Origin: Paraglaciecola polaris LMG 21857
Lineage (GTDB): Bacteria > Pseudomonadota > Gammaproteobacteria > Enterobacterales > Alteromonadaceae
Direction: 5' to 3'
Assembly: GCF_000315055.1 (NCBI RefSeq)
Contig: NZ_BAER01000127.1
Location: forward strand, 1-64,000
DNA length: 64,000 bases
Positions 7,170-22,958 of this stretch are shown piece after piece. Made by a program: the position numbers and the translations under genes. Below the pieces are notes generated by a model. It saw only the letters and a program-made list of their open reading frames with translations, was not told the origin of the DNA and did no database searches. Numbering within the stretch: the first letter of the stretch is position 1; every line of letters starts with the position of its first letter.

Positions 7170-7376
7170 TTAAACAGGTACTACGTTGTTCGCACATGGG
7201 CCTTTAGGGCTCTGTCCAACTTCAAACTCAACCGCTTGGCCGTCATTCAAAGTTGCGTATCCACCACCGCTTTTAATTTCTGAGTGATGAACAAATAAAT
7301 CTTTTCCGCCGTCTTCTGGAGTAATGAAACCGAAACCTTTGTCTGCATTAAACCACTTAACTGTACCTTTACTCAT
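7170..7376 (-). CDS. Cold-shock domain protein, CspA family
   Basis: 68-residue single cold-shock domain. RNP1 is KGFGFITP and RNP2 is DLFVHHSEI, the nucleic-acid-binding surface of CspA proteins. It acts as an RNA chaperone; whether it is cold-induced or constitutive cannot be told from the protein. The 238 bp upstream of the start (7377-7614) holds no other gene and could include a long 5' leader as in E. coli cspA. I did not find a convincing cold-box. Confidence 0.95.
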
Positions 7377-7614: not shown

Positions 7615-8325
7615 TTAGACAAAATCGATGAAGATATTGGCGGTTAGACGACCTGATGCAGGGTCTTCATTAATGTCTTTATCAGAGGCGATCAATCCGG
7701 AGTGTAATAAATTACCTGGGTAAATAAGCAAACGATTTGGTCTATAGTCGATTTGAGAATGTAAGGTAAATTGTTCCGTGGAAGCCGTAATATACCCAGC
7801 AGGGGGTTGGGCCACGTTATTAATAAAGTGGGCAGCCGAACTTAAATATTGACGTTCACGCACTGGCGTAATGCGTTCGAAGCCCGTATTGTTGTCCCTG
7901 AAAAAACCTGTTCCACCATGATGTCCAGGGTTTACGTAATGCAATAGTGCAAAATAAAAGGGGCTGACAGCGTCAAAGTGAGGGATGCGTTGCAAGGTCG
8001 AGAGCGCATGACTAGGTGTGCTAATCAAAGAGTAGTAGCCCGCTTGATGCTTGAGCTGCAGATGTTGAGGTATGTGATGAATTTGGGCGACCTGTTTATA
8101 GATCGACTGCAGTACCTCGATAGTATAATCCCTCGGGAGGTCAGCACGTGCTCCCGGATAAAAACCGCTGTTTTGCCGACTAAAACATTGATTTTGACAG
8201 GCATCTGCTGCTAATTCACGGGGAGCTAACAACACATCATCAATGACGATAATAGGCGTCTGCTCCCGCCCAACCTTAATCACCTTAACCGTTTTATTTG
8301 CATTGACAGTGAAAGGTAATGTCAT
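7615..8325 (-). CDS. DUF6445 protein, predicted Fe(II)/2-oxoglutarate oxygenase
   Basis: 236 residues, of the DUF6445 type often found beside tryptophan-halogenase-like genes. The fold assignment is my inference from a spaced metal triad: HFD at 116-118 (HxD), H208 in YPGNLLHSG, and R226 about 18 residues later in GRLTANIFIDF, as expected for a 2-oxoglutarate-binding Arg. This resembles prolyl-4-hydroxylase-like dioxygenases. It overlaps the halogenase stop by 4 bp (8322-8325), so the two are likely translationally coupled. No signal peptide, so it is probably cytoplasmic. Substrate unknown. Confidence 0.75.
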   Translation of the reverse strand: MTLPFTVNANKTVKVIKVGREQTPIIVIDDVLLAPRELAADACQNQCFSRQNSGFYPGARADLPRDYTIEVLQSIYKQVAQIHHIPQHLQLKHQAGYYSLISTPSHALSTLQRIPHFDAVSPFYFALLHYVNPGHHGGTGFFRDNNTGFERITPVRERQYLSSAAHFINNVAQPPAGYITASTEQFTLHSQIDYRPNRLLIYPGNLLHSGLIASDKDINEDPASGRLTANIFIDFV

Positions 8326-9818
8326 AAAGTGGGAATGTTTGTTTGGCAGTAGTGTCGTATAAAGTCATTCACATTTGGCCAATTAGCGACTTTACGTTTT
8401 ACGTTCGATTTGATGTTATCTAAAAACTGCTTGAGTTCCTCATCACTCATAATATCAACGATAGGGTGATATTGTTGAGGTGTAATACCTTGACCTAGCA
8501 TCACTTGGATCCAAGAGGTTTCGCCAAACAACTCTTCAGCTTTTTTAAAGACCTTACCTGTACTTTCGAACAAATCCATTCGGTGACGTAGTGTATCTGG
8601 GATAGGCATGTTCTTACAATAACGCCAAAATGGCGTATCAGTTCGCTGGGTTTGGTGATAGTGCAAAATAATGAAGTCTTTGATGTCATCAACATCGGCG
8701 CGGCTTTGGGCGTTAAATTCGTTTACATCCGCTTGTGCAATTCCATTCGATGGGAACATCAGCATCAAGCGCACAATGGCTCTTTGAAAAAGGTGAATGC
8801 CAGTTGATTCTAATGGTTCTATAAACCCAGAAGAGAGGCCAACTGCAATACAGTTTTTGTTCCAATGTTTACGCCGTGTGCCGGTTTTATATTTTATCAC
8901 TCGAGGTTCGTTGAGGAGCTCTCCCTCAATGTTCGCTAACAAGGCTGCTTTTGCTTGGTCATCACTCATGTATTTGCTACAAAATACTAAGCCATTACCC
9001 GTTCTATTTTGCAAAGGAATGCGCCATTGCCAACCTGCGTCACGAGCGATTGAACGAGTATATGGCACTGGATTAGGTTTGGCAGTGGTTTGCACTGCTA
9101 CCGCGGAGTCGCAGGGTAGCCAATGGCTCCAATCTTCAAACCCAGTGTGCAAAGCCTGTTCAATTAATAATGCTCGAAAGCCAGTACAATCAATAAATAA
9201 ATCGCCCTCTATCACCTCACAAGAGGCGAGGGTAAGTGCGCATATATCCCCTGAGTTGTCATCTAAGGTTACGGTTTCTATTTTGCCTTCAATACGTTTA
9301 CAGCCATGTTGCTCGGCGATTTTTCGTAGGTACTGGGCATATAAGCCGGCGTCTAAATGATACGCGTGGTTTTGTTCTTGATTAGCCAGTACGGCAAATC
9401 GGCTCTCACGACAGGCTAAATGCTCGGGTATATAATCACCTATTTGTGTCACCATGCCTTTTTGTTGGCCTTTCAACCAAAAATGCTGGAAACCTGCCGC
9501 CCAACAACCTTGGCCTAAAAAGCCAAACGAATGAATGTAGTCTTGATTTTGGACCTTCCAGTTCTCGAACTGTATGCCAAGTTTAAATGTTGCATTCGTG
9601 GCCGCCATAAACTCTTGCTCGTTGATACCCAGCAAACGATGAAAAATATGCAAGGTAGGTATGGTCGCTTCGCCAACCCCTACCGTAGGAATATCGTCAG
9701 ACTCAATCAGTGCAACAGATAAATTTTTACCTAATAGTTTAGAAAGAGCAGCTGCGGCCATCCAGCCTGCGGTGCCACCACCTGCAATAACGACACGTTT
9801 AATGGGTTTTTTATTCAT
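8322..9818 (-). CDS. FAD-dependent tryptophan-halogenase-like protein
   Basis: 498 residues, PrnA/RebH-like flavin-dependent halogenase family. Visible: FAD-binding GGGTAGWMAA (about 13-22); the catalytic lysine K79 in TFKLGIQF, at the same position as K79 of PrnA; the halogenase signature WxWxIP as W263-Q-W265-R-I-P268; and E337 in EPLESTGI, equivalent to the catalytic Glu 346 of PrnA. All the residues needed for HOCl/HOBr capture are thus present. No flavin reductase or biosynthetic gene is nearby. The neighbours are DUF6445, a cupin, SapC and a TonB-dependent receptor, a combination known from sugar-uptake loci of Alteromonadales, Caulobacterales and Xanthomonadales. Free tryptophan is not a safe substrate assignment. 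Confidence 0.9.
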   Translation of the reverse strand: MNKKPIKRVVIAGGGTAGWMAAAALSKLLGKNLSVALIESDDIPTVGVGEATIPTLHIFHRLLGINEQEFMAATNATFKLGIQFENWKVQNQDYIHSFGFLGQGCWAAGFQHFWLKGQQKGMVTQIGDYIPEHLACRESRFAVLANQEQNHAYHLDAGLYAQYLRKIAEQHGCKRIEGKIETVTLDDNSGDICALTLASCEVIEGDLFIDCTGFRALLIEQALHTGFEDWSHWLPCDSAVAVQTTAKPNPVPYTRSIARDAGWQWRIPLQNRTGNGLVFCSKYMSDDQAKAALLANIEGELLNEPRVIKYKTGTRRKHWNKNCIAVGLSSGFIEPLESTGIHLFQRAIVRLMLMFPSNGIAQADVNEFNAQSRADVDDIKDFIILHYHQTQRTDTPFWRYCKNMPIPDTLRHRMDLFESTGKVFKKAEELFGETSWIQVMLGQGITPQQYHPIVDIMSDEELKQFLDNIKSNVKRKVANWPNVNDFIRHYCQTNIPTL

Positions 9819-9857
9819 CTGTGATTTTGTCCTATAAATGATACGGGCAAGGTGAGC

Positions 9858-10874
9858 TTACACTTTCAATTTGTTCAGCAGTTCCGCTCTGAGTTTTTTA
9901 GCTGAAAGTAAATCTAGGGGTTGCGATAACATGCCTTTGACTGCATCTGGGATGTGATCCAAGTCCCCAGATTGATGCGCAAAGATGTAATGATCAAATA
10001 TGGCTTTCCAGGCATCACGTTGGGCGGGAGGCAGATTGCGCAAACTTAATATAGCGAGCTTCAATGCATTTTCAGGCCTTCCAAAATAGGCTGGGCTATC
10101 TCGCCACCAATGGGTCACTAATACGTTGAAATCGGTCAAACCTTCCACATGGTGCCACCACATACTAGGCAAAAATAACGCGTCCCCAGGTTCTAAGTCA
10201 GCGACTTGAGCCGCTTGCAGCGCCTGTTTAAATTTCGGGAACTTCACATAATCCGGAGCAGAAAAATCAACCAAACTAATATCCTGGCCCCCTGGTGATA
10301 GTTCCATCGGCCCCACATATAGATTTGCTATTTGCTCAGGTGGAAAAACCGTATAACGTCTTTTGCCAACGACGCAGCAGGCTAAATTGTTAGGCACATC
10401 ATAATGAGCAGCAATTCTACTATGGTTACCAATCCAGATATTGGTTAATGGATTAAACTCATCCATCCCGGCATTATTGGTTTGATTAAAACCCGGTAAC
10501 CAGTTATTTACGTCAGCAGAAGCCACATAAATAGTAGGGGGAGTAGGGTCGCCACGATGCGCTAATAGCTTATCTAGCACTAGGTTAAGATCGGCTTTTA
10601 CGCCCTGACAATTAAAGCCCGTCATGTCGTCGTTATAGAAAACTCGGCCTTGAGTATCCGGTTCGCCGTAAGCACTAAATACAGGTTTGCCATTGTATAG
10701 ACTGCGTAAATAGTTGGCGGCTTGCTCAGGCGAATCAAGCCCTGCCTCGACAATGGGCCAAGCGTTAGCAAACCCCTTCAACACAAGGGGTTCCGAGGAC
10801 GATAAAACAAACTGTGGAATATCGCCAGGGCGACAATTGGTAATATGCTTAACGCTTTTTTCAACTAACGACAT
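9858..10874 (-). CDS. JmjC-like cupin protein (Cupin_8), predicted Fe(II) hydroxylase
   Basis: 338 residues with a Cupin_8/JmjC domain related to the asparaginyl hydroxylase FIH. The iron ligands are visible as H157-Y-D159 in RIAAHYDVPNN and H241 in LPSMWWHHVEGL; the latter stretch closely resembles the WWHHI of FIH. GKRRYTVFPPEQ (about 170-181) is the conserved strand that normally carries the 2-oxoglutarate-binding Lys/Arg. It lies between sapC and the halogenase, 36-39 bp from each, on the same strand. The family contains protein and peptide hydroxylases; the target here is unknown. Confidence 0.85.
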   Translation of the reverse strand: MSLVEKSVKHITNCRPGDIPQFVLSSSEPLVLKGFANAWPIVEAGLDSPEQAANYLRSLYNGKPVFSAYGEPDTQGRVFYNDDMTGFNCQGVKADLNLVLDKLLAHRGDPTPPTIYVASADVNNWLPGFNQTNNAGMDEFNPLTNIWIGNHSRIAAHYDVPNNLACCVVGKRRYTVFPPEQIANLYVGPMELSPGGQDISLVDFSAPDYVKFPKFKQALQAAQVADLEPGDALFLPSMWWHHVEGLTDFNVLVTHWWRDSPAYFGRPENALKLAILSLRNLPPAQRDAWKAIFDHYIFAHQSGDLDHIPDAVKGMLSQPLDLLSAKKLRAELLNKLKV

Positions 10875-10910
10875 GGTATTTTGCTCAGTTAGGTTAGGCG
10901 CAACAGGCTG

Positions 10911-11639
10911 TTATAACCCTAATAATTCGTTTTTCTTATTCATTAAGGTTCTGATATTCGCTTGTGAAGCGATAGCCATATAAATGGCCTGCAAATAGCC
11001 TTTTTCATGTAGCTTACTCAATACTGCACCGTCGAGTTCGCTGAGCTTGTCTTCATTGATGGTGTAAAACCCAATCATTTGATACTTACTTTCATCATTG
11101 AGTGTGACGTCTAAGGTAAATGTCTCTAACAATTGATAGTCGACTAAACAGTCAATAAATGCAGCGCTATCTACAAAACCGTGATGTATCGCTTCCAGTA
11201 TATCGGCTGCGCGGTCTACGTAGGGACTGTTACCACCATGCGTTAAAAATAAGGGTTCCCCATACTCTTGGTTCACTCGTGGGTTATCAAGATCGATGTG
11301 TAATACCCTTTGCTCCTTCTCAATTCCGTCTTCTCTAACCTTTTGTATGCCTATCAGGAAGGGCTGTCTGGCGACGGTCAAGGGAATATAGCCCGCTTGC
11401 CATTTATTGTCTTGCAAGAACAAGTTCTCTTGGTCCTGAAATCCAAATAGGGCAATGGCAAAGAATTTTCCGTTGCTGGGATCTTTGTTAAAGAAGATGG
11501 GGTAATAAGCCTGAACACTTCTGAATTCATTTGGGAAGGTAGGGGAATACCACACATTGTCACCATAGGCTGATGAGTGTTCGGTAATCACTTTTACATT
11601 TTGGTGATCGATGCTGTTAAGTAATACGTTATTTGCCAT
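10911..11639 (-). CDS. SapC family protein
   Basis: 242-residue SapC-like protein (PF07277). The conserved core is recognisable in AYYPIFFNKDPSNGKFFAIA and GYIPLTVARQPFLIG. There is no signal peptide. An ATG four codons upstream (11651) is possible, but GGGA sits 6 nt before the ATG at 11639, so I prefer that start. It is first in the group sapC-cupin-halogenase-DUF6445. SapC genes repeatedly accompany TonB-dependent receptors and halogenase-like genes, but their molecular function is not established. The name comes from a Campylobacter S-layer locus and should not be read as export function here. Confidence 0.85.
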   Translation of the reverse strand: MANNVLLNSIDHQNVKVITEHSSAYGDNVWYSPTFPNEFRSVQAYYPIFFNKDPSNGKFFAIALFGFQDQENLFLQDNKWQAGYIPLTVARQPFLIGIQKVREDGIEKEQRVLHIDLDNPRVNQEYGEPLFLTHGGNSPYVDRAADILEAIHHGFVDSAAFIDCLVDYQLLETFTLDVTLNDESKYQMIGFYTINEDKLSELDGAVLSKLHEKGYLQAIYMAIASQANIRTLMNKKNELLGL

Positions 11640-11774
11640 TTTGGATCCCATTACATTAATTACATAAGGCTGTGCAGGTATAGCTGCGTAAGTACTTAGT
11701 GCTATATTTCGGCTACGCCAGATTGATTAACCTAAGTTAACCGTTCCTTATATAAATGTGTACCGTAGAGGTAA

Positions 11775-11809
11775 GAAGAAAAAGGCCGCATGAATTAATT
11801 CAGCGGCCT
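11775..11809 (-). terminator. Terminator of the TonB-dependent receptor gene
   Basis: On the minus strand: AGGCCGC, then a mostly self-complementary TGAATTAATTCA segment, GCGGCCT and a T-rich tail (TTTTCTTCTT). The outer arms are 11783-11789 and 11803-11809. It separates the receptor from sapC, so the sapC group needs read-through or its own promoter in 11652-11780. Confidence 0.75.
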
Positions 11810-11841
11810 GATGCAACATTTTAGAAATCGCTCAAGCTCGT

Positions 11842-14841
11842 CTAGAACGTGTAGCGCGCACCTAAGTTGTAGCGAGCTCCTTGTTGAGTCACGTTCAGTA
11901 CTTGGTATTCAGAACGACCATGCTTGCGAATGTATTCGTCAGTCAAATTGATGGCATTAAAGAAAATATTTAAGCCTTCGACCTGAGGGACATCATAGCT
12001 AATGGTCATATCTAATTGGCTATAAGCTTCGACATATACAGGTGAAACGCCTACATCGCCTTGGTACTGAGACTCAAGGAATTCGTCACGCCAGTTGTAA
12101 GCCAAACGCACAGACCAGCCATAGTCTTCATAGAAGGCTACCAAGTTTGCTGTATCACTGATGCCTAATTCAACGTCTTGGGTGCTAGCGCCAATATCAA
12201 AGTTGTCGAATTCAGCGCCAGTGTCCACTTTAGTGTAATTGATAATGCCACCAAAACCACTTTCGCCAAATAGGTGCTGGACAGCAAATTCAATCCCATC
12301 AAATGTTGACTCACCAGATTCGTTAACCGGCGTTTCAATATCGAAAATCATCAAACTATCGGTGGCTGGATTGCCTTGAATTTCTATATTTCCATTCACT
12401 AAATTTACCAGAGGATCCGTTGCTCCATAGGTATCGTATATATATTGGCGTTGCAAAGCGCCATCCGCACCCACAGCGGCTAACGCTTCTTGCTGGTATG
12501 GACCGTTCGCAGGATTCGCAATACCCGTTGTGACTGGGATATTGTCAATGACAACGTTATTGGTGGTTGTTTTTCTGAAATACCCTAACGATACATAGCT
12601 TCCTGGGGCGTAATACCATTCTGCAGAAAGGTCAATATTGTCTGACTCAAGCGGTAACAATGCAGCGCTACCAGAGGTTCCGCTTCCCCCATCAAATCGA
12701 GCGCCTTCGTTGAGTGAAGTACCACCAATCATTTGGCTATAATTAGGACGACCTATGGTTTCACTGTAAGCTGCTCGCAACATGACATCTTCAACCACTT
12801 CAATATTGAAATTGAAATTTGGTAAAGTATGGTTGTAGCTGCCTTCTTGCGTTTGGAATTCCTGCTCGCCTGAGGAAAGCAAGAAGACTTCAGTTGTGCC
12901 ATTCCATACTGCTCCATTATAACCTGGGACAGCAGAAGTCGAGGTAACATCGGTTTCTTCATAACGCAAACCAACATGCACGTCATACAGCATGTCGCCT
13001 ATTTCGCCGTCATAATTATATTGGGCATAAACAGCGGTCATTTCTTCTTTGTTATATCTGTCAGTATCCGATGCGTAATCGGTTGAAGGGCAAAAAGAAT
13101 TACCGCAATCGCCAACTGCTTGCACACTTAACAATTGGGCAGCTTGGTCTCTTACACCATGAAAATCAAAGGCAAAATAGGTATCCATAATTTCGTAATC
13201 TTCGCCATAAAGACCATTAAAGTCTGCGAAGTTGCCGCCACTCACATCGGTAAATTGGTTTTGAATCGATTTGCGAGGGAATAAATCTGCATCATAGGCA
13301 CCCGCTGAACCTTCTCCTCCCCAGTTATTACGCTGAACGTTTTTGGTTTGGCCGCGGTTTTCCGATGTGGTCAATGATAGGCCAAAATCGATACTGCCAG
13401 CATCTTCAAGCAAATATTTACCACGAAACTGTGTCTGCTCAGTATCGGCACGATTTTTATTATTGGTAAAAACGCTTCCTGTTACGAGCATATCCGATGG
13501 CTGAATCGCGTTCCCACCGCGAATCGCAAGGATAGGGAGGTCGCCAGTAAAATCTGTTGCTGATGATGCCCTAATAAAACCAGCCATAGCGAGATTATTG
13601 CTCGAACCAAACTCATTATTAGGTGAATTTTCAGCAGAAGAATTATGATAATCCAGCTCTAAGTTCAGGTTGTCATTCACTTGCCATTCTAAGTTCAAAC
13701 CTAGTGACTTGGTTTCATCGCGTGTGCCGTAATCTCCGCCACCCATAGCGATATCTTGTAAACCAACACCGTTTTCTTCGTAGTCTTCAGAATACAGTAA
13801 AGGAGACGAGATAGGACCGTCTGTCCACACGTTTTTTGAAGGTGAAAAGCCATACCATGCTGAGACATCATTAAATTGTGTATCAGTATCTTTTTTTACA
13901 TAGGTGTAGTCTAAGGTCGCGGTGAGGTTTTCAACAGGACTATATTGCAAGACTAACTGAGCATTGGTTCTTTTACGCTGCTGCTCTTCAAATTTATAAG
14001 CTGTGGTTTGCGGTACCGAATAGATATCACCATCGCTAGGGCGATTGGTTTGAAATTCATCTTTAGGTACGCCGCCCCATTGTGGGTTTGCCCCTGGTGC
14101 ACCACTCCAATCTTGGTCAGCTGTACCATCAAATGAGCGCCAGCCTGTGCTTACATTTGCTTGTTGATTACCACTTTCACGCTCTGAATAACTGCCTGAA
14201 ATAGAGATACCAAATTTACCGTCATCAGATGTATTGGAGTAAATACCTGAAAACTCAGGCGTCACACCACCTTCATTGGTCGATGTGTCGTTAAGAGCTT
14301 GAGCACTTATGGTGGAATGCATGCCAGGGTTGTTTAATGGTTTATTGGTCAGGATATTAATTGTGGCACCAATACCCCCAGTCGGCACGGTTGCATTAGA
14401 CGTCTTATAAACCTCAACGCCACTCACCCCTTCTGCAGCAATATTGGCAAAATCGAACGAACGATCACCCGTAGTCGTGGGAAGTTGACGGCCATTAAGC
14501 GTTACTAGGTTACGCTCGGGACCAAAACCGCGGACGGTTACTTTACTGCCTTCACCATTGTTTCTGTCAATGGATACACCGGTAATACGCTGTAATGATT
14601 CCGCTAAGTTTGTATCTGGGAACTTACCGATGTCTTCAGCATTAATCGCATCGACGATACCTGCCGAAGAGCGCTTTACGTCCATCGATTTAATCATGCT
14701 GCCGCGAATACCTTTAACTTGAATGACTTCTACGTCGCTCTCGTTAAGTTCTTGAGCTAGGGCTGGCGTCAGCATAGAGGCGCCTAGCAGTAATGAGATA
14801 CTGGTCGCAAGGTGTGTCTTATAAAATGTTTTAGCTTTCAT
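11842..14841 (-). CDS. TonB-dependent receptor, TIGR01782-like
   Basis: 999-residue outer-membrane receptor for energised uptake, probably of a beta-glucan or oligosaccharide. After the signal peptide (MKAKTFYKTHLATSISLLLG through PALAQ, about 34 residues) comes a plug domain (IRGSMIKSMDVKRSSAGIVD, about residues 49-68; VTVRGFGPERNLVTLNGRQL, about 105-124), then a 22-strand-type barrel ending in the C-terminal aromatic residue F (GARYNLGARYTF). I use ATG 14841, which has GGGAA about 6 nt upstream. A longer reading frame from 14961 would translate the operator DNA and yields a repeated NESAY peptide, a sign it is not coding. Sugar specificity is inferred from neighbours and shared operators. 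The Caulobacter/Xanthomonas-type class is the one usually seen with SapC and halogenase genes. Confidence 0.93.
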   Translation of the reverse strand: MKAKTFYKTHLATSISLLLGASMLTPALAQELNESDVEVIQVKGIRGSMIKSMDVKRSSAGIVDAINAEDIGKFPDTNLAESLQRITGVSIDRNNGEGSKVTVRGFGPERNLVTLNGRQLPTTTGDRSFDFANIAAEGVSGVEVYKTSNATVPTGGIGATINILTNKPLNNPGMHSTISAQALNDTSTNEGGVTPEFSGIYSNTSDDGKFGISISGSYSERESGNQQANVSTGWRSFDGTADQDWSGAPGANPQWGGVPKDEFQTNRPSDGDIYSVPQTTAYKFEEQQRKRTNAQLVLQYSPVENLTATLDYTYVKKDTDTQFNDVSAWYGFSPSKNVWTDGPISSPLLYSEDYEENGVGLQDIAMGGGDYGTRDETKSLGLNLEWQVNDNLNLELDYHNSSAENSPNNEFGSSNNLAMAGFIRASSATDFTGDLPILAIRGGNAIQPSDMLVTGSVFTNNKNRADTEQTQFRGKYLLEDAGSIDFGLSLTTSENRGQTKNVQRNNWGGEGSAGAYDADLFPRKSIQNQFTDVSGGNFADFNGLYGEDYEIMDTYFAFDFHGVRDQAAQLLSVQAVGDCGNSFCPSTDYASDTDRYNKEEMTAVYAQYNYDGEIGDMLYDVHVGLRYEETDVTSTSAVPGYNGAVWNGTTEVFLLSSGEQEFQTQEGSYNHTLPNFNFNIEVVEDVMLRAAYSETIGRPNYSQMIGGTSLNEGARFDGGSGTSGSAALLPLESDNIDLSAEWYYAPGSYVSLGYFRKTTTNNVVIDNIPVTTGIANPANGPYQQEALAAVGADGALQRQYIYDTYGATDPLVNLVNGNIEIQGNPATDSLMIFDIETPVNESGESTFDGIEFAVQHLFGESGFGGIINYTKVDTGAEFDNFDIGASTQDVELGISDTANLVAFYEDYGWSVRLAYNWRDEFLESQYQGDVGVSPVYVEAYSQLDMTISYDVPQVEGLNIFFNAINLTDEYIRKHGRSEYQVLNVTQQGARYNLGARYTF

Positions 14842-14873: not shown

Positions 14874-14890
14874 TGTAAGCGCTTTCATTT
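14874..14890 (-). promoter_or_regulatory. LacI-type operator, receptor proximal
   Basis: TGTAAGCGCTTTCATTT, centred on AGCGCT with near-palindromic arms, typical of LacI-family operators. It lies 33 bp upstream of the receptor start and is identical to the copies at 14913 and 19106. Confidence 0.82.
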
Positions 14891-14912: not shown

Positions 14913-14929
14913 TGTAAGCGCTTTCATTT
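14913..14929 (-). promoter_or_regulatory. LacI-type operator, receptor distal
   Basis: Second identical copy of TGTAAGCGCTTTCATTT, 39 bp from the proximal one (start to start), close to four helical turns, so two repressor dimers could sit on nearly the same face of the helix. Confidence 0.82.
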
Positions 14930-15152: not shown

Positions 15153-17738
15153 CTAAGGGGTAGCGCAACGAATAACGGCATCAGATGCGGTATTAGGCAC
15201 GATGCGAATATCAGATATTGATAAGCTCAACGGCTCTTTTGAACGTAAAGCGAACGGAATACCCACTTTTGAAAAGTCAGTAGAATTTTGCTTAAAGCAC
15301 GCTAAGTCAACCGACATCGTTTGCCAAGGTTGTGCCTGTTCGAACTGCATATGTTGCGTTAAGGCTACGTCGCTTTCACATGATTGCGCGCAATTCATCT
15401 GTAGGAATAATGCATCTTGAAGTGCTGAATTAAGTTGGTAGTCAAACTGCAGCGTACTGTTGCTTTCTGTATAACTGCGCAGGTCTTGAAGAAAATCATG
15501 ATAAATACGTACTTGCCCAGCATCAGCTTTTAACCACTCAACTTTGAATGCATCTTCTTGCACACGTCTGTCTATAGTTCTGAATTTAAGCGCGCCATTT
15601 TCTAGCATACTACTGGCTACCGTCGCACTTTTTTGTGCTGTTACGAGCGCCATTTTCCAAGGGGCTTGAACGTTTCTGTCGTATATGGCTAGCACGGGTA
15701 ATGCTTGTTCATTATCACTGCCCGTTTCCTCAGAAAGTGTGTTATCTACGGTGCTTCTCTCGCCATATTTTAAGCCAAACCCGTAGGGTAATAAGCCAGA
15801 GTCGTTTGTATCAAAGCGATTAATGTTGGTTTGCGTAGGACTTTTGGGCCATGAAAACGACAGCTGACCTTTGAAATCATGCTGAATATCACCGTTCGCC
15901 GCTGTGAATAACACATCAGCCACGCCAGCGCCTTCAGTGCCGGGCAACCAAGCAACGACGAACGCATCAGAAGCATTCAATTCAGGGTTGACCCACAAGG
16001 GGCGACCCGTCAGAAATACCGATACTACCGGTATGCCTTGCGCTTTTAGCGATTTGAGTAAAGCTAAATCAGTTTTGTTACCCCGTTGGTATTCAAGGTT
16101 ATCCAGATCGCCGTTTCCTTCTGCATAAGGTTGCTCACCAAATACCACTATGGCGACGTCAGGCTTTTGGGTGAATTTGCCATCTACCGCCAGTTCTACA
16201 GTACCATTGGCTTGCGCGACTGCTTGCTGGATCCCTTGATAAATTGATGTGCCGCCAGGGAAATCCTGATTGGTGTTACCCGTTCCTTGCCAGGTAATAC
16301 TCCATCCCCCTGATTGCTGACCTATATTGTCAGCACCGCCACCTGCAACGAGTATATTCGCGTTCGCAGACAGAGGTAAAACTTGTTGATGGTTCTTCAA
16401 TAGTACCAGCGACTCACGCACCGCTTGACGTGCTACGGCTCTGTGTTCGGGCGACCCAATAATATCTTTATTACCAGATAAAATGCGTTCAGCTGGCGCT
16501 GGTTTATCGAATAATCCAGCGCGAAGCTTTACTCGTAAAATGCGAGTAACTGCATCATCAAGACGAGTAGTACTTATCTCACCTGACTCCACCTGAGCGA
16601 TGGTATTTTCAAGTAAGGGTTTCCAAGCGCCAGTCGGCACCATGTAAATATCAAGTCCGGCATTCATTGCTTGCGGACAACTTTCATTACTACAGCCCTG
16701 TATTTGCCCATGGCCGTTCCAGTCGCCAACAACAAAGCCGTCAAAACCCATACGCTCTTTCAATACTGAGGTTAATAAGTAGCGATTGCCATGTACCTTA
16801 TCGCCGTTCCAGCTATTAAACGACGCCATGACACTTTGTGCACCAGCGGTTAAACCGCCAACGTATCCTTGTGCATGTATATCAAACAGGGTCTGTTCAT
16901 CAGCAATATTGTCACCTTGATCATCACCACCAACGGTGCCTCCATCTCCAATAAAGTGCTTAACGGTTGAAATAACCTGGCGGTCGCCTAAGAAATTGCT
17001 GTCTGCACTGCCTTGTAAGCCTTTTACGATGGACGCTGAATAGTCTCTAACGATTTCAGGATCTTCTGAATATCCTTCGTACGTTCTGCCCCAACGATCG
17101 TCGCGTACGGTGGCAACCGTGGGCGCGAAAATCCAGTCGATACCTGTCGCTAATACTTCTTCAGCGGTAGCTTTGGCTATTTCTTCAATCAATGCTGGGT
17201 TATGAGCCGCCCCTAATCCAATGTTGTGGGGGAATAGCGTGGCACCAATCACGTTGTTGTGGCCGTGAACTGCGTCTGTGCCCCACATAGTAGGAATAGT
17301 TGAACCATCAATGCTGTCGTCAATCGATGCCTGGTACATCTTTTCCGCTAATGCTACCCAATCACTAGGCGAAGCGTGTTTGTCGCCATTGGGAAATGCG
17401 CCGCCGCCGTTTAAGTAAGAGCCAAAACCATAGGTGCGCATGTCATCTAAGGTGATATCACGAATTTCGGGCTGAATAGTCTGGGCAACTTTTTGCGCGA
17501 GTGTCATACCACTGAGAATGTCAGTGATACGTTGTTCAATTTTGGCATCGGGCTTTACCGCGATATTTAATTTAGGCCAAATCTCGATTGAGTTCGCAGT
17601 GGCAGCGTCTTTGCTCTTTGCAACGCCCTGTTTCGTTGAAATCACAACGTTGTCTGTTGTGGATTGACTGCAGCCGACAAGTAGCGAGGTTAGAGAGACC
17701 GCACCTAACATCAGAGCGTGATTAAATTTTTGTTTCAT
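15153..17738 (-). CDS. GH3 lipoprotein, exo-1,3/1,4-beta-glucan glucosidase (ExoP-like)
   Basis: 861-residue glycoside hydrolase family 3 enzyme that would release glucose from the non-reducing end of beta-glucans or oligosaccharides. A lipobox LLVGC puts the lipidated cysteine at C23, so it is probably anchored in the outer membrane or periplasm. The GH3 barrel contains KHFIGDGGT (K260, H261) and the nucleophile D339 in GFVVGDWNGHGQ, the VGDWNGHGQI form typical of exo-1,3/1,4-beta-glucosidases such as ExoP of marine Pseudoalteromonas. The second GH3 domain lies at about 430-660, followed by a C-terminal beta-sandwich of about 190 residues. It lies 21 bp after the FucP-type importer gene and is likely co-transcribed with it. 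Confidence 0.92.
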   Translation of the reverse strand: MKQKFNHALMLGAVSLTSLLVGCSQSTTDNVVISTKQGVAKSKDAATANSIEIWPKLNIAVKPDAKIEQRITDILSGMTLAQKVAQTIQPEIRDITLDDMRTYGFGSYLNGGGAFPNGDKHASPSDWVALAEKMYQASIDDSIDGSTIPTMWGTDAVHGHNNVIGATLFPHNIGLGAAHNPALIEEIAKATAEEVLATGIDWIFAPTVATVRDDRWGRTYEGYSEDPEIVRDYSASIVKGLQGSADSNFLGDRQVISTVKHFIGDGGTVGGDDQGDNIADEQTLFDIHAQGYVGGLTAGAQSVMASFNSWNGDKVHGNRYLLTSVLKERMGFDGFVVGDWNGHGQIQGCSNESCPQAMNAGLDIYMVPTGAWKPLLENTIAQVESGEISTTRLDDAVTRILRVKLRAGLFDKPAPAERILSGNKDIIGSPEHRAVARQAVRESLVLLKNHQQVLPLSANANILVAGGGADNIGQQSGGWSITWQGTGNTNQDFPGGTSIYQGIQQAVAQANGTVELAVDGKFTQKPDVAIVVFGEQPYAEGNGDLDNLEYQRGNKTDLALLKSLKAQGIPVVSVFLTGRPLWVNPELNASDAFVVAWLPGTEGAGVADVLFTAANGDIQHDFKGQLSFSWPKSPTQTNINRFDTNDSGLLPYGFGLKYGERSTVDNTLSEETGSDNEQALPVLAIYDRNVQAPWKMALVTAQKSATVASSMLENGALKFRTIDRRVQEDAFKVEWLKADAGQVRIYHDFLQDLRSYTESNSTLQFDYQLNSALQDALFLQMNCAQSCESDVALTQHMQFEQAQPWQTMSVDLACFKQNSTDFSKVGIPFALRSKEPLSLSISDIRIVPNTASDAVIRCATP

Positions 17739-17759: not shown

Positions 17760-19022
17760 TTAGACGGATGTTGATGAAGTCGGTTTGGAGCCTTGCAGGC
17801 CATAAAAGGCGATATACAAGTAACAAACCAGAGGCAATACGAAAGACAGTTGCAAACCAATGCTGTCAGCTAAAACACCTTGTAAAACAGGAACAATAGC
17901 ACCGCCTACAATGGCTAAACATAAAACGCCTGAGCCACGACTGGTCAAACTGCCTAAGCCTGCTAAGGCCAAACTGAAAATAGTTGGAAACATGATGGAA
18001 TTGAATAAACCCACCATTAATATCGCCCACATGGCAAACGCACCGCTTGATGATATGGCCAAGGCAATGAGGCCCATAGCGCACACACTGTTGAAGGCGA
18101 GCAGTTTACCAGCAGGTATTTTTTGCATTACCGCAGCGCCAATAAAGCGGCCAATCATTGCACCGCCCCAGTAATAACTTAGATAAGTGGCGGCGCTTGC
18201 TTCTGCTAAGCCTGCAATGTGCTGTTCGCCCAAAAAGTTAACGATGAAACTGCCAATGGATACTTCAGCGCCGACATAAATAAAGATGCACACTGCGCCT
18301 AGCGTGAGGTGGCGATGTTGTAGAGGGCTGCCCTTTGTTGTGTTTAAAGTATCAGGTGTATTGGCTATTTCAGCTGGGCTGGTATCTGGCAGTGATATTT
18401 TTAGAAACACCATAGCAAGCAAAAACAGTACTGATGCCAAAATAATGTACGGCAGAATAACACTATTCGCTGTCATATCGCTTTCGTCTATGACTGAGAA
18501 AATCAATATTCCGCCAATGATAGGCGCAAGCGTGGTTCCCAGAGAATTAAAGGCTTGAGTTAAGGTTAATCGGCTCGGTGCGGTTTCAGGTTTGCCAAGC
18601 AGCGTTACTATCGGGTTTGCAGCGACCTGTAAAATAGTGATGCCTGATGCCAACACAAATAACGCCGTCAGGAATATCCAATAGGTATGACTCGTCGCTG
18701 CGGGAACAAATAACAAACAGCCGATACAAGCGACGAGCAAACCAACGCTGATCCCGCGCTGAAATCCAATGCGCTTAACCAACCAACCTGCGGGTACCGA
18801 TACTAAAAAATAAGCACCAAAGAAACAGAATTGAATCAACATAGCTTGGGTGTAACTAAGTGCAAAGACGGCCTTTAAATGAGGAATGAGCACATCATTC
18901 ATTGCTGTGATAAAACCCCACATAAAAAACAATGACGTTAGCGAGGTCAAAGCAAAGCGATAACTTTGCGACTTAGCGCTTTGAGTCGACTCCGGTGGAA
19001 TGGCGGTAGTTGGGTTTATCAT
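17760..19022 (-). CDS. FucP/GluP-type sugar importer (MFS)
   Basis: 420-residue major-facilitator protein of the fucose/glucose/galactose:H+ symporter group, with about 12 membrane helices. Typical features: the N-terminal [20 protein letters not shown], near-invariant in this group (N and D in the first helix), [20 protein letters not shown], and [10 protein letters not shown]. It is the first gene of a two-gene unit with the GH3 lipoprotein, so glucose is the most likely substrate. It is divergent from the GH1 gene; a LacI-type operator sits between them at 19106-19122. Confidence 0.9.
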
Positions 19023-19105: not shown

Positions 19106-19122
19106 TGTAAGCGCTTTCATTT
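19106..19122. promoter_or_regulatory. LacI-type operator between divergent sugar operons
   Basis: TGTAAGCGCTTTCATTT, third identical copy. It lies 84 bp upstream of the FucP-type importer start and 107 bp upstream of the GH1 start, so one repressor site could control both units. Confidence 0.82.
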
Positions 19123-19228: not shown

Positions 19229-20575
19229 ATGAAAATATCCCTCGCAAAATCTTCTCCACTTAGCCAAACAAATTTCACCTATGGTGTGGCCACTGCCGCC
19301 TTCCAAATTGAAGGTGCAGCAGAGTCACGTAGACCATGTATTTGGGACAAATTTTGTGCTACGCCTGACAAAATAAAAGACAGCTCCAATGGGCTAGAAG
19401 CATGTGACCATTTTAATCGTTGGGAGCAAGATTTAGCGTTGATAGAGTCTCTTGAAGTAGATGCCTACCGGTTTTCAGTGTCTTGGCCTAGGGTTATCAC
19501 CCACAGCGGGGAGTTAGACCCTAAAGGTGTAGCGTTTTACGTTGAACTACTCGATGCGTTAAATCAGAAAAACATCAAACCTTATGTCACCCTGTATCAT
19601 TGGGATTTACCGCAGCATCTGGAAGACAAAGGTGGCTGGTTGAATCGTGAAACAGCGTATCATTTTCGTGATTATGTTGACTTGATCACGCAAGCGTTTG
19701 GGGACCGAGTGTACTCATATTCAACCTTGAACGAACCATTCTGCAGTGCGTATTTAGGCTATGAGCTAGGCATTCATGCTCCAGGTTTGAAGAGCAAAGC
19801 GTTCGGTAAGCAAGCTGCCCATCATTTGTTACTTGCTCACGGGTTAGGTATGCAAGTACTCGCTAAAAACAGTCCTGAAACACTCAATGGCATCGTGTTA
19901 AATGTTAGCCCGTGCTACCCGAAAACCGACAGTGAGAAAGATAAAAAGGCAGCATGGGCCGCAGATCAGAATCTTAATCATTGGTATGCGATGCCAGTGC
20001 TTGAAGGACGCTACCCCGAATCTATCAATACCTTACCAGAGGAAGAATTGCCGCCGATTCAACAAGGCGACATGGCGATTATCTGTCAGCCGCTAGACTA
20101 CCTTGGGCTGAACTATTACACCCGCGAGGTATACGAAGGTGTGGGTCATAACGACAGACAAAAATGGGTTGATGAATCATTGCCTTTTACTGAGATGGGC
20201 TGGGAGGTATACCCTCTAGGTTTAACTGATATTTTGCTGCAACTGAATAACAAATACACACTTCCGCCCGTATACATCACTGAAAACGGTGCTGCCATGG
20301 CAGATAGTTATGCCGAGGGGCAAGTACAAGACACGGATAGAATCGAATATTTTCAAGGGCATTTGCAAGCGGTGAGTGATGCGGCTGAGCAAGGCGTAGA
20401 TATTCGCGGCTATTTCGCGTGGAGTTTAATGGATAACTTCGAATGGGCAGAAGGGTACGAAAAACGCTTTGGCATAGTATACGTAGATTACGACACACAA
20501 CAGCGCACCATAAAGGCCAGCGGGTTGGCATATCGAGATTTTATTAGTAGTCGCCAATTAGCCAAGAGCGCATAG
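19229..20575 (+). CDS. GH1 beta-glucosidase
   Basis: 448-residue family 1 beta-glucosidase, no signal peptide, so cytoplasmic: it would hydrolyse imported cellobiose, laminaribiose or similar disaccharides. The general acid/base is E169 in TLNEPF and the nucleophile is E352 in YITENGAA. FQIEGA (26-31), YHWDLPQ and SWPRV, all seen here, shape the glucose-binding subsite. It is the first gene of GH1-GPH importer-lacI, 16 bp before the importer. 6-Phospho-glucosidase activity is less likely because no PTS gene is nearby. Confidence 0.95.
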   Translation: MKISLAKSSPLSQTNFTYGVATAAFQIEGAAESRRPCIWDKFCATPDKIKDSSNGLEACDHFNRWEQDLALIESLEVDAYRFSVSWPRVITHSGELDPKGVAFYVELLDALNQKNIKPYVTLYHWDLPQHLEDKGGWLNRETAYHFRDYVDLITQAFGDRVYSYSTLNEPFCSAYLGYELGIHAPGLKSKAFGKQAAHHLLLAHGLGMQVLAKNSPETLNGIVLNVSPCYPKTDSEKDKKAAWAADQNLNHWYAMPVLEGRYPESINTLPEEELPPIQQGDMAIICQPLDYLGLNYYTREVYEGVGHNDRQKWVDESLPFTEMGWEVYPLGLTDILLQLNNKYTLPPVYITENGAAMADSYAEGQVQDTDRIEYFQGHLQAVSDAAEQGVDIRGYFAWSLMDNFEWAEGYEKRFGIVYVDYDTQQRTIKASGLAYRDFISSRQLAKSA

Positions 20576-20591: not shown

Positions 20592-21917
20592 ATGGTTAGC
20601 GTTAAAGAAAAAATAGCCTATGGGTTAGGAGACACGGCAAGTAACATCGTTTTTCAATCGGTGATGTTGTTTTTGTCCTTTTTCTATACCGATATATTTG
20701 GTATCTCACCTGCAATAGTCGGTACGCTATTTTTAGTAGTGCGTATCTTTGATGCAGTAACTGACCCTTTGATGGGAGCGATGACAGATCGCACCCAAAC
20801 GAAATACGGTAAATTTCGGCCTTATTTGCTGTGGTTAGCGCTTCCCTTTGGCGTGATAAGCGTGCTGGCGTTTACTACACCTGATTTCAGTGAGCAGGGC
20901 AAGGTGATATATGCCTTTGTCACTTATGCCTTGTTGATGATTGCCTACACTGCGATCAATATTCCATACTCGGCGCTGGGTGGGGTAATTACTGGCGATC
21001 CTAAAGAGCGGGTATCGGTACAGTCTTACCGATTTGTATTCGGTATGCTTGGTGGGTTGATTGTGACGGCTTGTACGCTTCCATTGGTCGACTGGTTTGG
21101 TGCTGGTGATAAAGCCAAAGGATATCAGTTAACGATTGCCGCTATGAGTGCGGTGGGCGTACTGATGTTTTTAGTGTGCTTCGCTGGCACCAAAGAGCGC
21201 GTGATTGCACCGAAGCAAGACTCCACCTTTAAGCAAGATATGGCGTCATTATGGCAGAATGACCAATGGCGAATTTTATCTGGCGTGGCCTTTTTTGTGC
21301 TCATTGGTATGGTGATGCGTAATACCTTAGCGATTTATTACGTGAAGTACTTTTTGCTCAGAGAAGACTTGATCACGGCATTTATCACCTTAGGGATGAT
21401 TGGCAATATTATTGGCTGTGCGGTTGCGCCTAGTGTGGTCAAACGGTTTTGCAAAATTAAAGTGTATATAGGCGTACTGTTCATTGCCGCGCTGATATGC
21501 GTAGCAAGTTATTGGGTCCAACCAGAGCAATTGGTTTTAGCGTTTGTCGTTTATTTTATAGGTAATGTGTTTTTGCAAATGGGCACCCCGTTACTGTGGG
21601 CAAAAATCGCGGATACTGTAGATTATGGTCAGTTTAAAACGGGTATTCGCATAACGGGTATGACGTACTCGTCAGTGGTGTTTTTCATCAAACTTGGCTT
21701 AGCACTAGGCGGGGCGATAGTGGGTTGGTTGTTGGCATATTACGGTTATCAAGCTGATACAACCCAAAGCCCTGATGCGGTGCACGGCATATTATTGTCT
21801 TTTACTATTTTCCCTGCGGTGGCGTTTATCATTGTATCTTGGGTCATGAGTCGTTATACACTTAACGACAATAAGGTGACGGAAATTCAACAAGCCATTG
21901 TAAAAGAGGCCGTTTGA
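20592..21917 (+). CDS. GPH-family glycoside:cation symporter
   Basis: 441-residue inner-membrane transporter of the glycoside-pentoside-hexuronide family (MelB/XynB-like), about 12 helices. Diagnostic stretches: EKIAYGLGDTASNIVFQ at the N-terminus, the DAVTDPLMGAMTDRTQTKYG loop after helix 2, and the LWAKIADTVDYGQFKTG segment near helix 10. AGGAGT precedes the ATG. Being between GH1 and lacI, it probably imports the beta-glucoside that GH1 cleaves. Confidence 0.93.
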   Translation: MVSVKEKIAYGLGDTASNIVFQSVMLFLSFFYTDIFGISPAIVGTLFLVVRIFDAVTDPLMGAMTDRTQTKYGKFRPYLLWLALPFGVISVLAFTTPDFSEQGKVIYAFVTYALLMIAYTAINIPYSALGGVITGDPKERVSVQSYRFVFGMLGGLIVTACTLPLVDWFGAGDKAKGYQLTIAAMSAVGVLMFLVCFAGTKERVIAPKQDSTFKQDMASLWQNDQWRILSGVAFFVLIGMVMRNTLAIYYVKYFLLREDLITAFITLGMIGNIIGCAVAPSVVKRFCKIKVYIGVLFIAALICVASYWVQPEQLVLAFVVYFIGNVFLQMGTPLLWAKIADTVDYGQFKTGIRITGMTYSSVVFFIKLGLALGGAIVGWLLAYYGYQADTTQSPDAVHGILLSFTIFPAVAFIIVSWVMSRYTLNDNKVTEIQQAIVKEAV

Positions 21918-21959: not shown

Positions 21960-22958
21960 ATGGCAACAATTTATCAAGTGTCTGAGCTCGCTGGGGTTTC
22001 TCTAGCGACGGTATCGAGGGTGATGAACGGTGGCACACGCGTTAGCGAAAAGACCCGGGAAAAAGTGACCAAAGCGATGGAAACCCTTAATTACCGTCCA
22101 AGTTCAATTGCTCGTTCTTTAGCGTCAAATTGTTCTAATAGTGTGGGGATTTTAGTTTCAGAATTACACGGGCCAATCTATGGCGAAATGATGAGCGGTA
22201 TAGAAAAGCAACTTCGTACCGCGGGTAAACACGTCATTATCGCTGCTGGGCACAGTGATGCTGCCAGTGAAAAAGACGGTATTGAGTTTTTAATCGACCG
22301 TAATTGTGACGCACTTATTCTGCACGTAGAAGCCGTCAGCGACGAATACCTCATTGAGTTAGCAACAACTAAATATGCCTTTATCCTGATCAACCGATAT
22401 ATCCCACAAATAGCAGATAACTGCATCAGTTTAAACAATCGCCGTGGTGGCTACCTGGCCACAAAAGCCTTATTAGAAAACGGCCACCGTGACATCGCCT
22501 ATATTTCAGGCCCGTTATGGAAAATGGATGCCAATGATCGTTATCTTGGCCATCAAGAGGCGTTGTCTGAATTCGGTATCGCCTGCAATGAAGCATTGCT
22601 CAGTGAAGGTAACTTCCAAGAAGAAGGCGGTAATGAATGCATGCTAGCCTTATTGGATACAAAAATAGCGTTTAGCGCCGTGGTCTGTGCCAACGATGAG
22701 ATGGCCGCTGGAGCCATGCAAGCCGCTCGTGATAGGGGCTTAGCGGTACCTAACGACATCTCAGTCATGGGGTTTGATAATGTTCTATTAGCCCGGTACA
22801 TGTATCCTAAATTATCTACAGTGAACTACCCAGTACAAGATATGGGTAAAATGGCAGCAAGCTGGATTTTGAAGAATATTTATCAAGCGAATCAGCCTGA
22901 CATAAGCCACGTATTTGAGCCTGAGCTGGTGTGGCGCGACTCGGTTATTTCACTTTAG
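21960..22958 (+). CDS. LacI-family regulator of the beta-glucoside genes
   Basis: 332 residues. The N-terminal helix-turn-helix and hinge are ATIYQVSELAGVSLATVSRV and RPSSIARSLAS (residues 2-57); the rest is a periplasmic-binding-protein-like effector domain ending in VWRDSVISL. It is the third gene of the GH1 operon. The three AGCGCT-centred operators in the locus are the expected targets, including one at its own operon, so autoregulation is likely. The inducer (glucose, cellobiose or laminaribiose) cannot be told from sequence. Confidence 0.92.
   Translation: MATIYQVSELAGVSLATVSRVMNGGTRVSEKTREKVTKAMETLNYRPSSIARSLASNCSNSVGILVSELHGPIYGEMMSGIEKQLRTAGKHVIIAAGHSDAASEKDGIEFLIDRNCDALILHVEAVSDEYLIELATTKYAFILINRYIPQIADNCISLNNRRGGYLATKALLENGHRDIAYISGPLWKMDANDRYLGHQEALSEFGIACNEALLSEGNFQEEGGNECMLALLDTKIAFSAVVCANDEMAAGAMQAARDRGLAVPNDISVMGFDNVLLARYMYPKLSTVNYPVQDMGKMAASWILKNIYQANQPDISHVFEPELVWRDSVISL

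Follow-up and report, generated by a model that had tools for sequence, protein, structure and literature searches.

BrvH and Xcc4156 are flavin-dependent halogenases with open active sites that do not halogenate free tryptophan. The authors who solved their structures suggest peptides as substrates and describe what BrvH and the Xanthomonas halogenases act on in nature as unknown (PMC5945002, PMC7336383). A second halogenase gene lies upstream of brvH (PMC5945002), comparable to the two-halogenase operons described below. Halogenation of Trp within peptides is carried out by MibH and ChlH, flavin-type enzymes of RiPP clusters (for ChlH, PMC12518702). TonB-dependent receptors are co-conserved with a cytoplasmic Fe(II)/2-oxoglutarate (2OG) oxygenase in the CciT-CciO, Fiu-YbiX and PiuA-PiuC pairs, which have one oxygenase each, Fur control and a role in iron uptake; the same source reports that the CciT receptor requires the cytoplasmic dioxygenase CciO and is made and placed normally without it (PMC11870441).

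The window analyzed here is a 64,000-nucleotide stretch of Paraglaciecola polaris LMG 21857 (contig NZ_BAER01000127.1, positions 1 to 64,000). As in the CciT-CciO partnership, an oxygenase gene is conserved beside a receptor gene, but the oxygenases are two and of other families, and the module adds one or two halogenases and SapC, with LacI-type operators before the receptor at this locus. Its halogenase resembles BrvH and Xcc4156 in the region of the catalytic Lys and Glu and in the WxWxIP motif, and is much closer to them than to MibH or ChlH; unlike in the RiPP clusters of the latter, no precursor peptide gene was recognized beside it. The text of the BrvH and Xcc4156 papers (PMC5945002, PMC7336383) never mentions TonB, a receptor, a cupin or SapC, whereas the window enzyme sits beside all of these.

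Five genes follow one another on the minus strand: a TonB-dependent receptor of the TIGR01782 type (11842-14841; 607 bits against a curated cut-off of 310), SapC (10911-11651; full-length Pfam match to PF07277, E 7.6e-71), a Cupin_8/FIH-like JmjC oxygenase (9858-10874; PF13621, E 1.2e-66), a class-A flavin-dependent halogenase of the BrvH/Xcc4156 type (8322-9818; Trp_halogenase, PF04820, E 3.3e-190) and DUF6445 (7615-8325; PF20043, E 1.9e-73). The initial annotation had placed five genes of these families at these positions on one strand, and profile searches matched every one of them. The halogenase and DUF6445 genes overlap by 4 nt, and the gaps are 39 nt between halogenase and cupin, 36 nt between cupin and SapC, and 190 nt between SapC and the receptor. 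A class-B halogenase gene, usual between receptor and SapC in the commonest operon, is absent from this locus.

The receptor N-terminus reads by eye as a signal peptide, MKAKTFYKTHLATSISLLLGASMLTPALAQ. Upstream of its gene are two LacI-type operators with no strand assigned, TGTAAGCGCTTTCA at 14874..14887 and a second at 14913..14926, and a third copy (19106..19119, likewise unstranded) lies between an MFS transporter gene and a GH1 gene. These three sites in the window compare with a mean of 0.14 in shuffled sequence, and a LacI-type site likewise precedes the receptor in five other loci (L042, L044, L045, L047, L048). The probable reader of the three operators is the LacI family regulator encoded at 21960..22958 on the plus strand. 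Between receptor and SapC, a near-perfect palindrome followed by a T-rich run on the minus strand was seen by eye at 11783..11809 and is a possible terminator or attenuator, although a hairpin scan with a loop limit of 8 did not return it. The nucleotide sequence of this gap found no match in L042. Frames in this gap and in the gap upstream of the receptor encode only 18-34 aa, none convincing as a precursor peptide; a RiPP cluster is not favored, although small peptides may be encoded.

Among the 177 halogenases aligned, the N-terminal FAD-binding GxGxxG (G13, G15, G18) is invariant, as are K79 and E337, which align with the catalytic Lys and Glu of PrnA (K79 and E346). The window protein has K79, E337 and a complete WxWxIP (W263, W265, I267, P268). 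In class-A proteins, the Pro of this motif is present in 111/111 and the Ile in 110; class-B proteins have Gly for this Pro in 60/66, and in all 66 the Ser of EPLEST is replaced by Ala. By its sequence, the window class-A enzyme retains the residues that are catalytic in active halogenases. Among the nearest solved enzymes in the PDB, Xcc4156 (6y1w, 633 bits) and BrvH (6frl, 471 bits) match it over nearly the whole protein, and MibH (5uao) is also matched (E 8e-55). As to whether its active site is open, lacking the loop that holds tryptophan, the alignments to PrnA and RebH end at window residues 417-420, short of the full RebH loop 442-467 (named in PMC7336383), while those to 6y1w and 6frl continue.

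The best PDB match of the cupin is FIH (E 2e-18), a protein hydroxylase, in an alignment that covers residues 146-263 only. Aligned with FIH, the iron triad HxD...H of the cupin (H157, D159, H241) is found in 62/62 aligned proteins, and so is R172, at the place of FIH Lys214, the residue that holds 2-oxoglutarate. Because this invariant Arg replaces the Lys, the cupin is classed as FIH-like and not as FIH, although the metal-binding residues are shared. In DUF6445, H116, D118, H208 and R226 are invariant in 11/11 proteins, R226 being the putative 2OG-binding Arg. Its predicted model (pLDDT 92.2) is a double-stranded beta-helix with 23 PDB matches at E<=0.001, and the matches named for a function are nearly all 2OG oxygenases; DUF6445 is thus predicted from the model to be an Fe(II)/2-oxoglutarate dioxygenase. 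Family matches, residue alignments and this model together bear out the earlier count of one flavin and two iron-type oxygenases.

SapC owes its name to a Campylobacter surface-layer gene. Its true start is probably ATG 11639, because Met5 of the called ORF is almost always conserved and the alignment with the nearest relative begins at this residue; no signal peptide was seen by eye. Its predicted model is confident (pLDDT 97.0) and found no PDB fold at E<=0.001 (best E 0.079), and the sequence search returned no convincing match (best E 0.28), so a role as flavin reductase or other known enzyme was dropped. SapC frequently occurs by itself, which counts against the receptor reading. Isolated SapC loci have a receptor-like frame nearby in 4/18, two of these being weak matches, and no such frame was found in any of 20 loci from halogenase-free genomes. 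The contexts of isolated SapC are mixed, some adjoining very large ORFs and some looking by eye like housekeeping regions, and no single role follows from them.

The module recurs. This genome carries the five genes again in identical order (G000:C133, locus L029), with identities to the window copy of 48% for the receptor, 52% for SapC, 53% for the cupin, 65.5% for the halogenase and 41% for DUF6445. The commonest operon in other species runs from receptor through class-B halogenase, SapC and cupin to class-A halogenase, sometimes with DUF6445 added, and this exact order of the first five genes was found in 29 operons among the loci compared. The module genes usually lie on the strand of the receptor, in one preferred order behind it, and this order spans Alpha-, Beta- and Gammaproteobacteria, judging from record titles and the operons compared. 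In two genome samples, of 148 and 249, SapC is strongly associated with halogenase (P = 2e-20 and 3e-18, values that overstate independence because the sampled genomes are related, the second resting on lists whose overlap was compared by eye). For class-A halogenases with neither SapC nor a class-B halogenase nearby, 20 stretches were compared, covering 22 of these 30 genes; in 18 of the stretches the halogenase still comes immediately 3' of a receptor. When the search was anchored on the receptor, a module gene came next in 8/8 receptors with downstream sequence (six outside this genome and two within it; the neighbor of L280 was placed from coordinates). The three genome searches scored no more than 10, 6 and 2 candidates per genome, the last figure belonging to the receptor-anchored one.

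The halogenase-anchored set comprises the best 80 of 585 confirmed matches, so module completeness in it is biased toward near relatives; the co-occurrence samples and the receptor-anchored search serve as controls for this bias. A receptor is absent in 12 of these best 80 loci, eight of which begin <5 kb before the match, and the other four (L058, L085, L093, L115) have ample upstream sequence and no receptor, L093 despite a full module. Further exceptions to the receptor link are L200 and L294. Gene order deviates in L120, L065, L028, L027, L302 and L306, and SapC is on the opposite strand in L308. In L246 the receptor is accompanied by SapC with an Asp/Arg-hydroxylase and sulfotransferases instead, a case that speaks for the editing reading given below. 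Halogenase and receptor subtypes agree in 269/334 best-match comparisons (33 class-A pairs; mean 135 and maximum 209 in 500 shuffles), which is also expected from co-inheritance of neighbors. Overall, co-occurrence, operon order and the receptor-anchored result substantiate the expectation in the initial annotation, which had proposed a co-occurrence search, that these genes recur with TIGR01782-type receptors beyond chance. In the open-licence papers searched, no description of a receptor-halogenase-oxygenase-SapC module was found, a weak absence; "tryptophan halogenase" and "TonB-dependent" both occur, unlinked, in the part of PMC11337851 examined, and none of six context words is present in PMC8269204.

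Our preferred reading, held tentatively and with somewhat less than even confidence, is that the receptor is paired with a dedicated cytoplasmic oxidation module, most likely one that edits a polypeptide, its client perhaps being the receptor precursor. FADH2, O2 and halide would yield an electrophilic halogen at Lys79 of the halogenase, with bromide possibly the preferred halide by analogy with BrvH and Xcc4156. The electrophile would attack an indole or another electron-rich ring of a polypeptide, not free tryptophan, while the cupin and DUF6445 would hydroxylate the same substrate or a neighboring one. SapC, which has no recognizable enzyme fold, may bind or present the substrate. The client would most likely be the not yet exported receptor precursor or else a small partner of the receptor, and the benefit may be that such receptors gain a chemical finish that serves ligand binding, stability, or evasion of phages and bacteriocins; both client and benefit are inferred. 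A more specific version, in which the cytoplasmic enzymes halogenate (probably brominate) and hydroxylate outer-membrane receptors before export while SapC serves as client adaptor, seems rather unlikely. The dependence of CciT on the cytoplasmic dioxygenase CciO is a precedent for the preferred reading; the normal production and placement of CciT without its dioxygenase counts against it.

A first comparison of 93 linked with 28 unlinked receptors gave strong column differences (residues numbered from ATG 14841). W507 and W646 are confined to one receptor clade, and Y749 has frequencies of 0.93 and 0.94 in two linked clades against 0.11 in unlinked receptors but occurs in only 2/7 other linked receptors; none of the three is among the 15 best columns with phylogenetic pairs, and no target residue is named here. 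When 114 linked receptors were compared with the 28 unlinked ones, which come from only four genomes, under tree control (11 linkage changes; five receptors of unclear status left out), no Trp, Tyr or His column stood out. Among 313 tree-controlled column tests, the best was an Asp column, with about 5/9 independent pairs, and the best aromatic column, Y991, had 4.7 for and 1.7 against. A single shared target residue is therefore unlikely, and we can only infer receptor modification, since no Trp, Tyr or His column is convergent between linked and unlinked receptors. Receptor Trp content differs little (1.43% against 1.24%; P = 0.007 without phylogeny control). The earlier suggestion that the enzymes modify a peptide, a protein or a small molecule is partly supported: an oxidation module linked to the receptor is borne out, and its target may be a protein or a small molecule.

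The surroundings bear on whether the enzymes instead act on an imported ligand. By family matches, the context upstream of the receptor consists of genes for a GH3 beta-glucosidase-like protein (15153..17738, minus strand), an MFS sugar transporter of the GluP/FucP type (17760..19022, minus), a GH1 beta-glucosidase (19229..20575, plus), a GPH family sugar symporter (20592..21917, plus) and the LacI family regulator. GH3-like genes are found in 39, LacI-like in 35, and GH1-like and GPH-like in 16 each of the 80 halogenase-anchored loci (best 80 of 585 matches). Oxidation of the aromatic part of a ligand, e.g., a phenolic glycoside or a feruloylated glycan, for breakdown would suit these genes, the LacI operators before the receptor, and the acceptance of indole by BrvH (PMC5945002), and the carbohydrate setting of many loci fits such a ligand-directed role equally well. 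Nevertheless, we place it on the unlikely side: no ring-cleaving or dehalogenating family was found among the ten window proteins scanned, two halogenases with an FIH-like enzyme and SapC make an odd catabolic set, and the window GH3, GH1, GPH, MFS and LacI proteins have no match within the 20 kb around the C133 paralog. The receptor and halogenase pair is kept across differing gene surroundings. The beta-glucan link of the initial annotation is accordingly plausible here, where GH3, GH1, GPH and LacI genes adjoin, but not general.

Synthesis of a cell-made or tethered small molecule, siderophore-like or a signal, for the receptor to bind or take back up is improbable; a model of this kind was considered for a receptor-dioxygenase pair by the CciT/CciO authors (PMC11870441), but regulation at this locus looks sugar-linked from its LacI-type operators, and the longest listed frame of the window, 1039 aa, is the receptor. 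No listed frame is thus of synthase or synthetase size, in agreement with the earlier remark that natural-product genes are missing. That the halogenase-like proteins no longer halogenate and instead work as flavin monooxygenases, or as redox sensors matched to receptor expression, is quite improbable: the class-B substitutions in WxWxIP and EPLEST would suit it, but the WxWxIP Pro of every class-A protein including that of the window, the invariant K79 and E337, and the in vitro activity of BrvH and Xcc4156 as brominases do not. Carbohydrate loci commonly undergo rearrangement and transfer, and unrelated genes could hitch-hike in a mobile one; chance assembly is nonetheless scarcely credible against one order in three proteobacterial classes, the co-occurrence P values even from non-independent genomes, and the 8/8 receptor-anchored result.

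The module gives a genomic context to the question of the native substrates of BrvH-type halogenases and narrows the hunt to a short list, namely the receptor precursor, the receptor's partner and the receptor's ligand. If the more specific version, editing of the receptor before its export, is true, BrvH-type halogenases would belong to nutrient uptake, as enzymes that modify proteins, and not to secondary metabolism. Were the receptor itself the target, halogenation of surface proteins would add a new type of protein modification in bacteria, and one that would occur in many proteobacteria with these receptors.

Gene calls and family matches bore out the one-strand order described in the initial annotation: on the minus strand, a TIGR01782 TonB-dependent receptor (11842-14841) is followed by SapC (10911-11651, likely start 11639), a Cupin_8 protein (9858-10874), a Trp_halogenase-family protein (8322-9818) and DUF6445 (7615-8325). 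GH3 and MFS sugar transporter genes lie upstream of the receptor on the same strand, and GH1, GPH symporter and LacI regulator genes lie beyond them on the opposite strand. Three perfect copies of TGTAAGCGCTTTCA are present in the window (mean of 0.14 in shuffles, with at most one mismatch allowed), two before the receptor and one between the MFS and GH1 genes. Judging from these sites, the receptor and the glucosidases look like one sugar regulon at this locus. When other loci were scanned, a site of the same pattern was found before the receptor in L042, L044, L045, L047 and L048 (among L042-L059), and none in the own-genome loci L024-L041, which hold the paralogues. A palindrome with a T-rich run at 11783-11809, noticed by eye between the receptor and SapC, could terminate or attenuate the receptor mRNA. 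Downstream of DUF6445, a 68-aa frame (7170-7376, minus strand) resembles a cold-shock protein by eye.

A PF04820 search of the genome holding the window (5,239,503 bases) returned 14 stretches, i.e., eight full-length halogenases, two halves of one broken gene and four short weak matches. A receptor is present in the locus of all eight full-length halogenases and of the broken one, 2.75 kb off in the C34 contig locus. The locus on contig C133 repeats the window's entire order from receptor to DUF6445 at 41-65.5% identity, and none of the window's GH3, GH1, GPH, MFS or LacI proteins has a match in its fetched 20 kb. Sixteen receptors in this genome exceed the TIGR01782 cut-off, seven linked to a halogenase and nine unlinked. 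In the same genome, a halogenase of the second type (class B, absent from the window locus) is split over two frames (L027, 9598-11119) and a SapC gene carries an in-frame stop (G000:C123:18254-18927); these are decaying copies or assembly errors.

Partners were scored with profiles built for this analysis, anywhere in the fetched stretch. Among the best 80 of 585 confirmed halogenase matches, a receptor was found in 68 loci, SapC in 56, the cupin in 54, DUF6445 in 11 and at least two halogenases in 64. In the halogenase search, the genome holding the window matched Paraglaciecola chathamensis S18K6 best, at 92% in the top segment. Across all loci compared, 111 halogenases belong to class A (HALA), the window's kind, and 66 to class B (HALB). 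Read from the receptor, the commonest operon is receptor-HALB-SapC-cupin-HALA (n = 29), followed by receptor-HALA alone (n = 22, some of which may have partners missed by the profiles); the window's form occurs four times (the window, its C133 paralogue L029, L042 and L118). A few operons depart from the preferred gene order. Median gaps are 15 nt (halogenase-SapC), -2.5 nt (SapC-cupin), 13 nt (cupin-halogenase) and 5 nt (halogenase-DUF6445), and from the receptor 112 nt to a halogenase and 144.5 nt to SapC. A halogenase-free version retaining SapC (L246, G003:C9, 1614-8416) has a receptor, then an Asp/Arg beta-hydroxylase, a TPR-sulfotransferase, a second sulfotransferase and SapC.

Among 148 genomes of the window's order, SapC was found in 35, a halogenase (E ≤ 1e-60) in 36 and both in 30 (P = 2e-20, Fisher's exact test), and among 249 genomes of the phylum in 92, 39 and 38, respectively (P = 3e-18), both P-values being weakened by the relatedness of the sampled genomes. 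The recurrent gene order does not rest on them. In the 148-genome sample, a halogenase was present no more than 3 kb from 51 of the 76 SapC matches, and SapC or a halogenase equally close to 11 of the 15 strong DUF6445 matches and to none of the 5 weak ones. Anchored on the receptor, a search of 321 genomes gave 10 matches, from 6 of them; a module gene adjoins eight (two in the window's genome) and the other two reach a contig end. For the L280 receptor, the neighboring SapC was placed from the coordinates of a separate SapC search. The receptor-module association, for which the initial annotation had proposed a co-occurrence check, recurs beyond chance. Thirty class-A genes have no SapC or class-B neighbor; in 18 of the 20 stretches fetched, holding 22 of these genes, a class-A gene is directly 3' of a receptor; of the remaining two, L206 has a receptor frame ~7 kb away, and the second is L200. 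Further halogenase stretches contained a receptor in 18 of 20 cases, L294 being without one and L295 stopping at the contig end. Exceptions to the receptor link are L294, L093 and L200 (G018:C1, 2843-11034), whose fetched stretch has a class-A halogenase beside GDE_C, GH31, an esterase and DUF6445 but lacks a receptor.

SapC on its own is more widespread and not confined to receptor loci, and any role of it within the module is a guess, because isolated SapC loci are mostly without a receptor: a receptor-like frame was present in 4 of 18 stretches from the order, two of them weak, and a receptor or halogenase match in none of 20 SapC loci taken from genomes of the phylum that lack a halogenase. 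One isolated SapC gene (L219, 6607-8884, G113:C1) lies opposite ExbD-like and TonB-like genes recognized by eye; its stretch also contains a weak receptor match. The predicted SapC model (pLDDT 97.0, built from 58 sequences) suggests a fold without a solved relative, since it had no PDB fold match at E ≤ 0.001 and the sequence search gave no convincing relative. Halogenase-less SapC genes in L263, L268, L269, L270 and L220 adjoin or are near very large ORFs (1745-2453 aa), which perhaps encode surface or secreted proteins; some in high-GC genomes may be spurious.

The nearest solved relatives of the window halogenase are Xcc4156 (6y1w, 633 bits), 9luq (552) and BrvH (6frl, 471), with PrnA at 302. 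All 177 proteins of both classes share K79 and E337. Every one of the 111 class-A proteins has the Pro of WxWxIP; 60 of the 66 class-B proteins have Gly instead, and class B also has EPLEA where class A has EPLES (EPLEAS vs. EPLEST). Class B, mostly WxWxIG with K79/E337 kept (e.g., L028, 8846-10420, nearest solved protein 2pyx), may use a different halide or catalyze a hydroxylation. The best solved match of the cupin is the protein hydroxylase FIH (E = 2e-18), and H157, D159 and H241 are found in 62/62 cupins, with Arg172 at the position of a Lys in FIH. In DUF6445, H116, D118, H208 and R226 are invariant (11 sequences); its predicted model (pLDDT 92.2) matches the uncharacterized 3bvc best, then 2OG oxygenases, e.g., AviO1, OGFOD1 and HygX, with a prolyl hydroxylase lower down.

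In Caulobacter, one report functionally ties the receptor CciT to the cytoplasmic Fe(II) oxygenase CciO, whose substrate is stated there as unknown; CciT is still delivered to the membrane when CciO is missing (PMC11870441). The parts of the module are known; for their receptor-bound, multi-oxygenase combination, no description was found in the literature searched (weak evidence, as most subscription papers fell outside it).

By eye, a signal peptide is present in the receptor and absent from all four module proteins. Where gene surroundings differ, the receptor is the partner that stays most constant. Asp/Arg hydroxylase and sulfotransferase domains, as in L246, are able to act on polypeptides. 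Neither BrvH nor Xcc4156 halogenates free tryptophan, both have open active sites, and the authors of the two studies raise a peptide substrate (PMC5945002, PMC7336383). Out of 334 comparisons, receptor and halogenase subtypes agree in 269, against at most 209 under the null, a pairing to be read with the caveat that neighboring genes are co-inherited anyway. No shared target residue emerged from 313 column tests on a 142-receptor tree with 11 linkage changes; the best column was an Asp (~5 of 9 independent pairs) and the best aromatic one Y991 (4.7 for, 1.7 against). Either different receptors have different targets, or the substrate is something other than the receptor. The clade of full-cluster receptors has conserved Trp motifs (SAW.., WTDGP and QR..WGG; window receptor residues ~329-340 and 507, from the ATG at 14841), which may hold sugar; with phylogeny taken into account, they do not rank with the columns that best track linkage. 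Taking the absence of a shared target residue together with the evidence in favor, we therefore hold it doubtful that the receptor itself is halogenated, and give somewhat less than an even chance to the broader reading, that the module edits a polypeptide.
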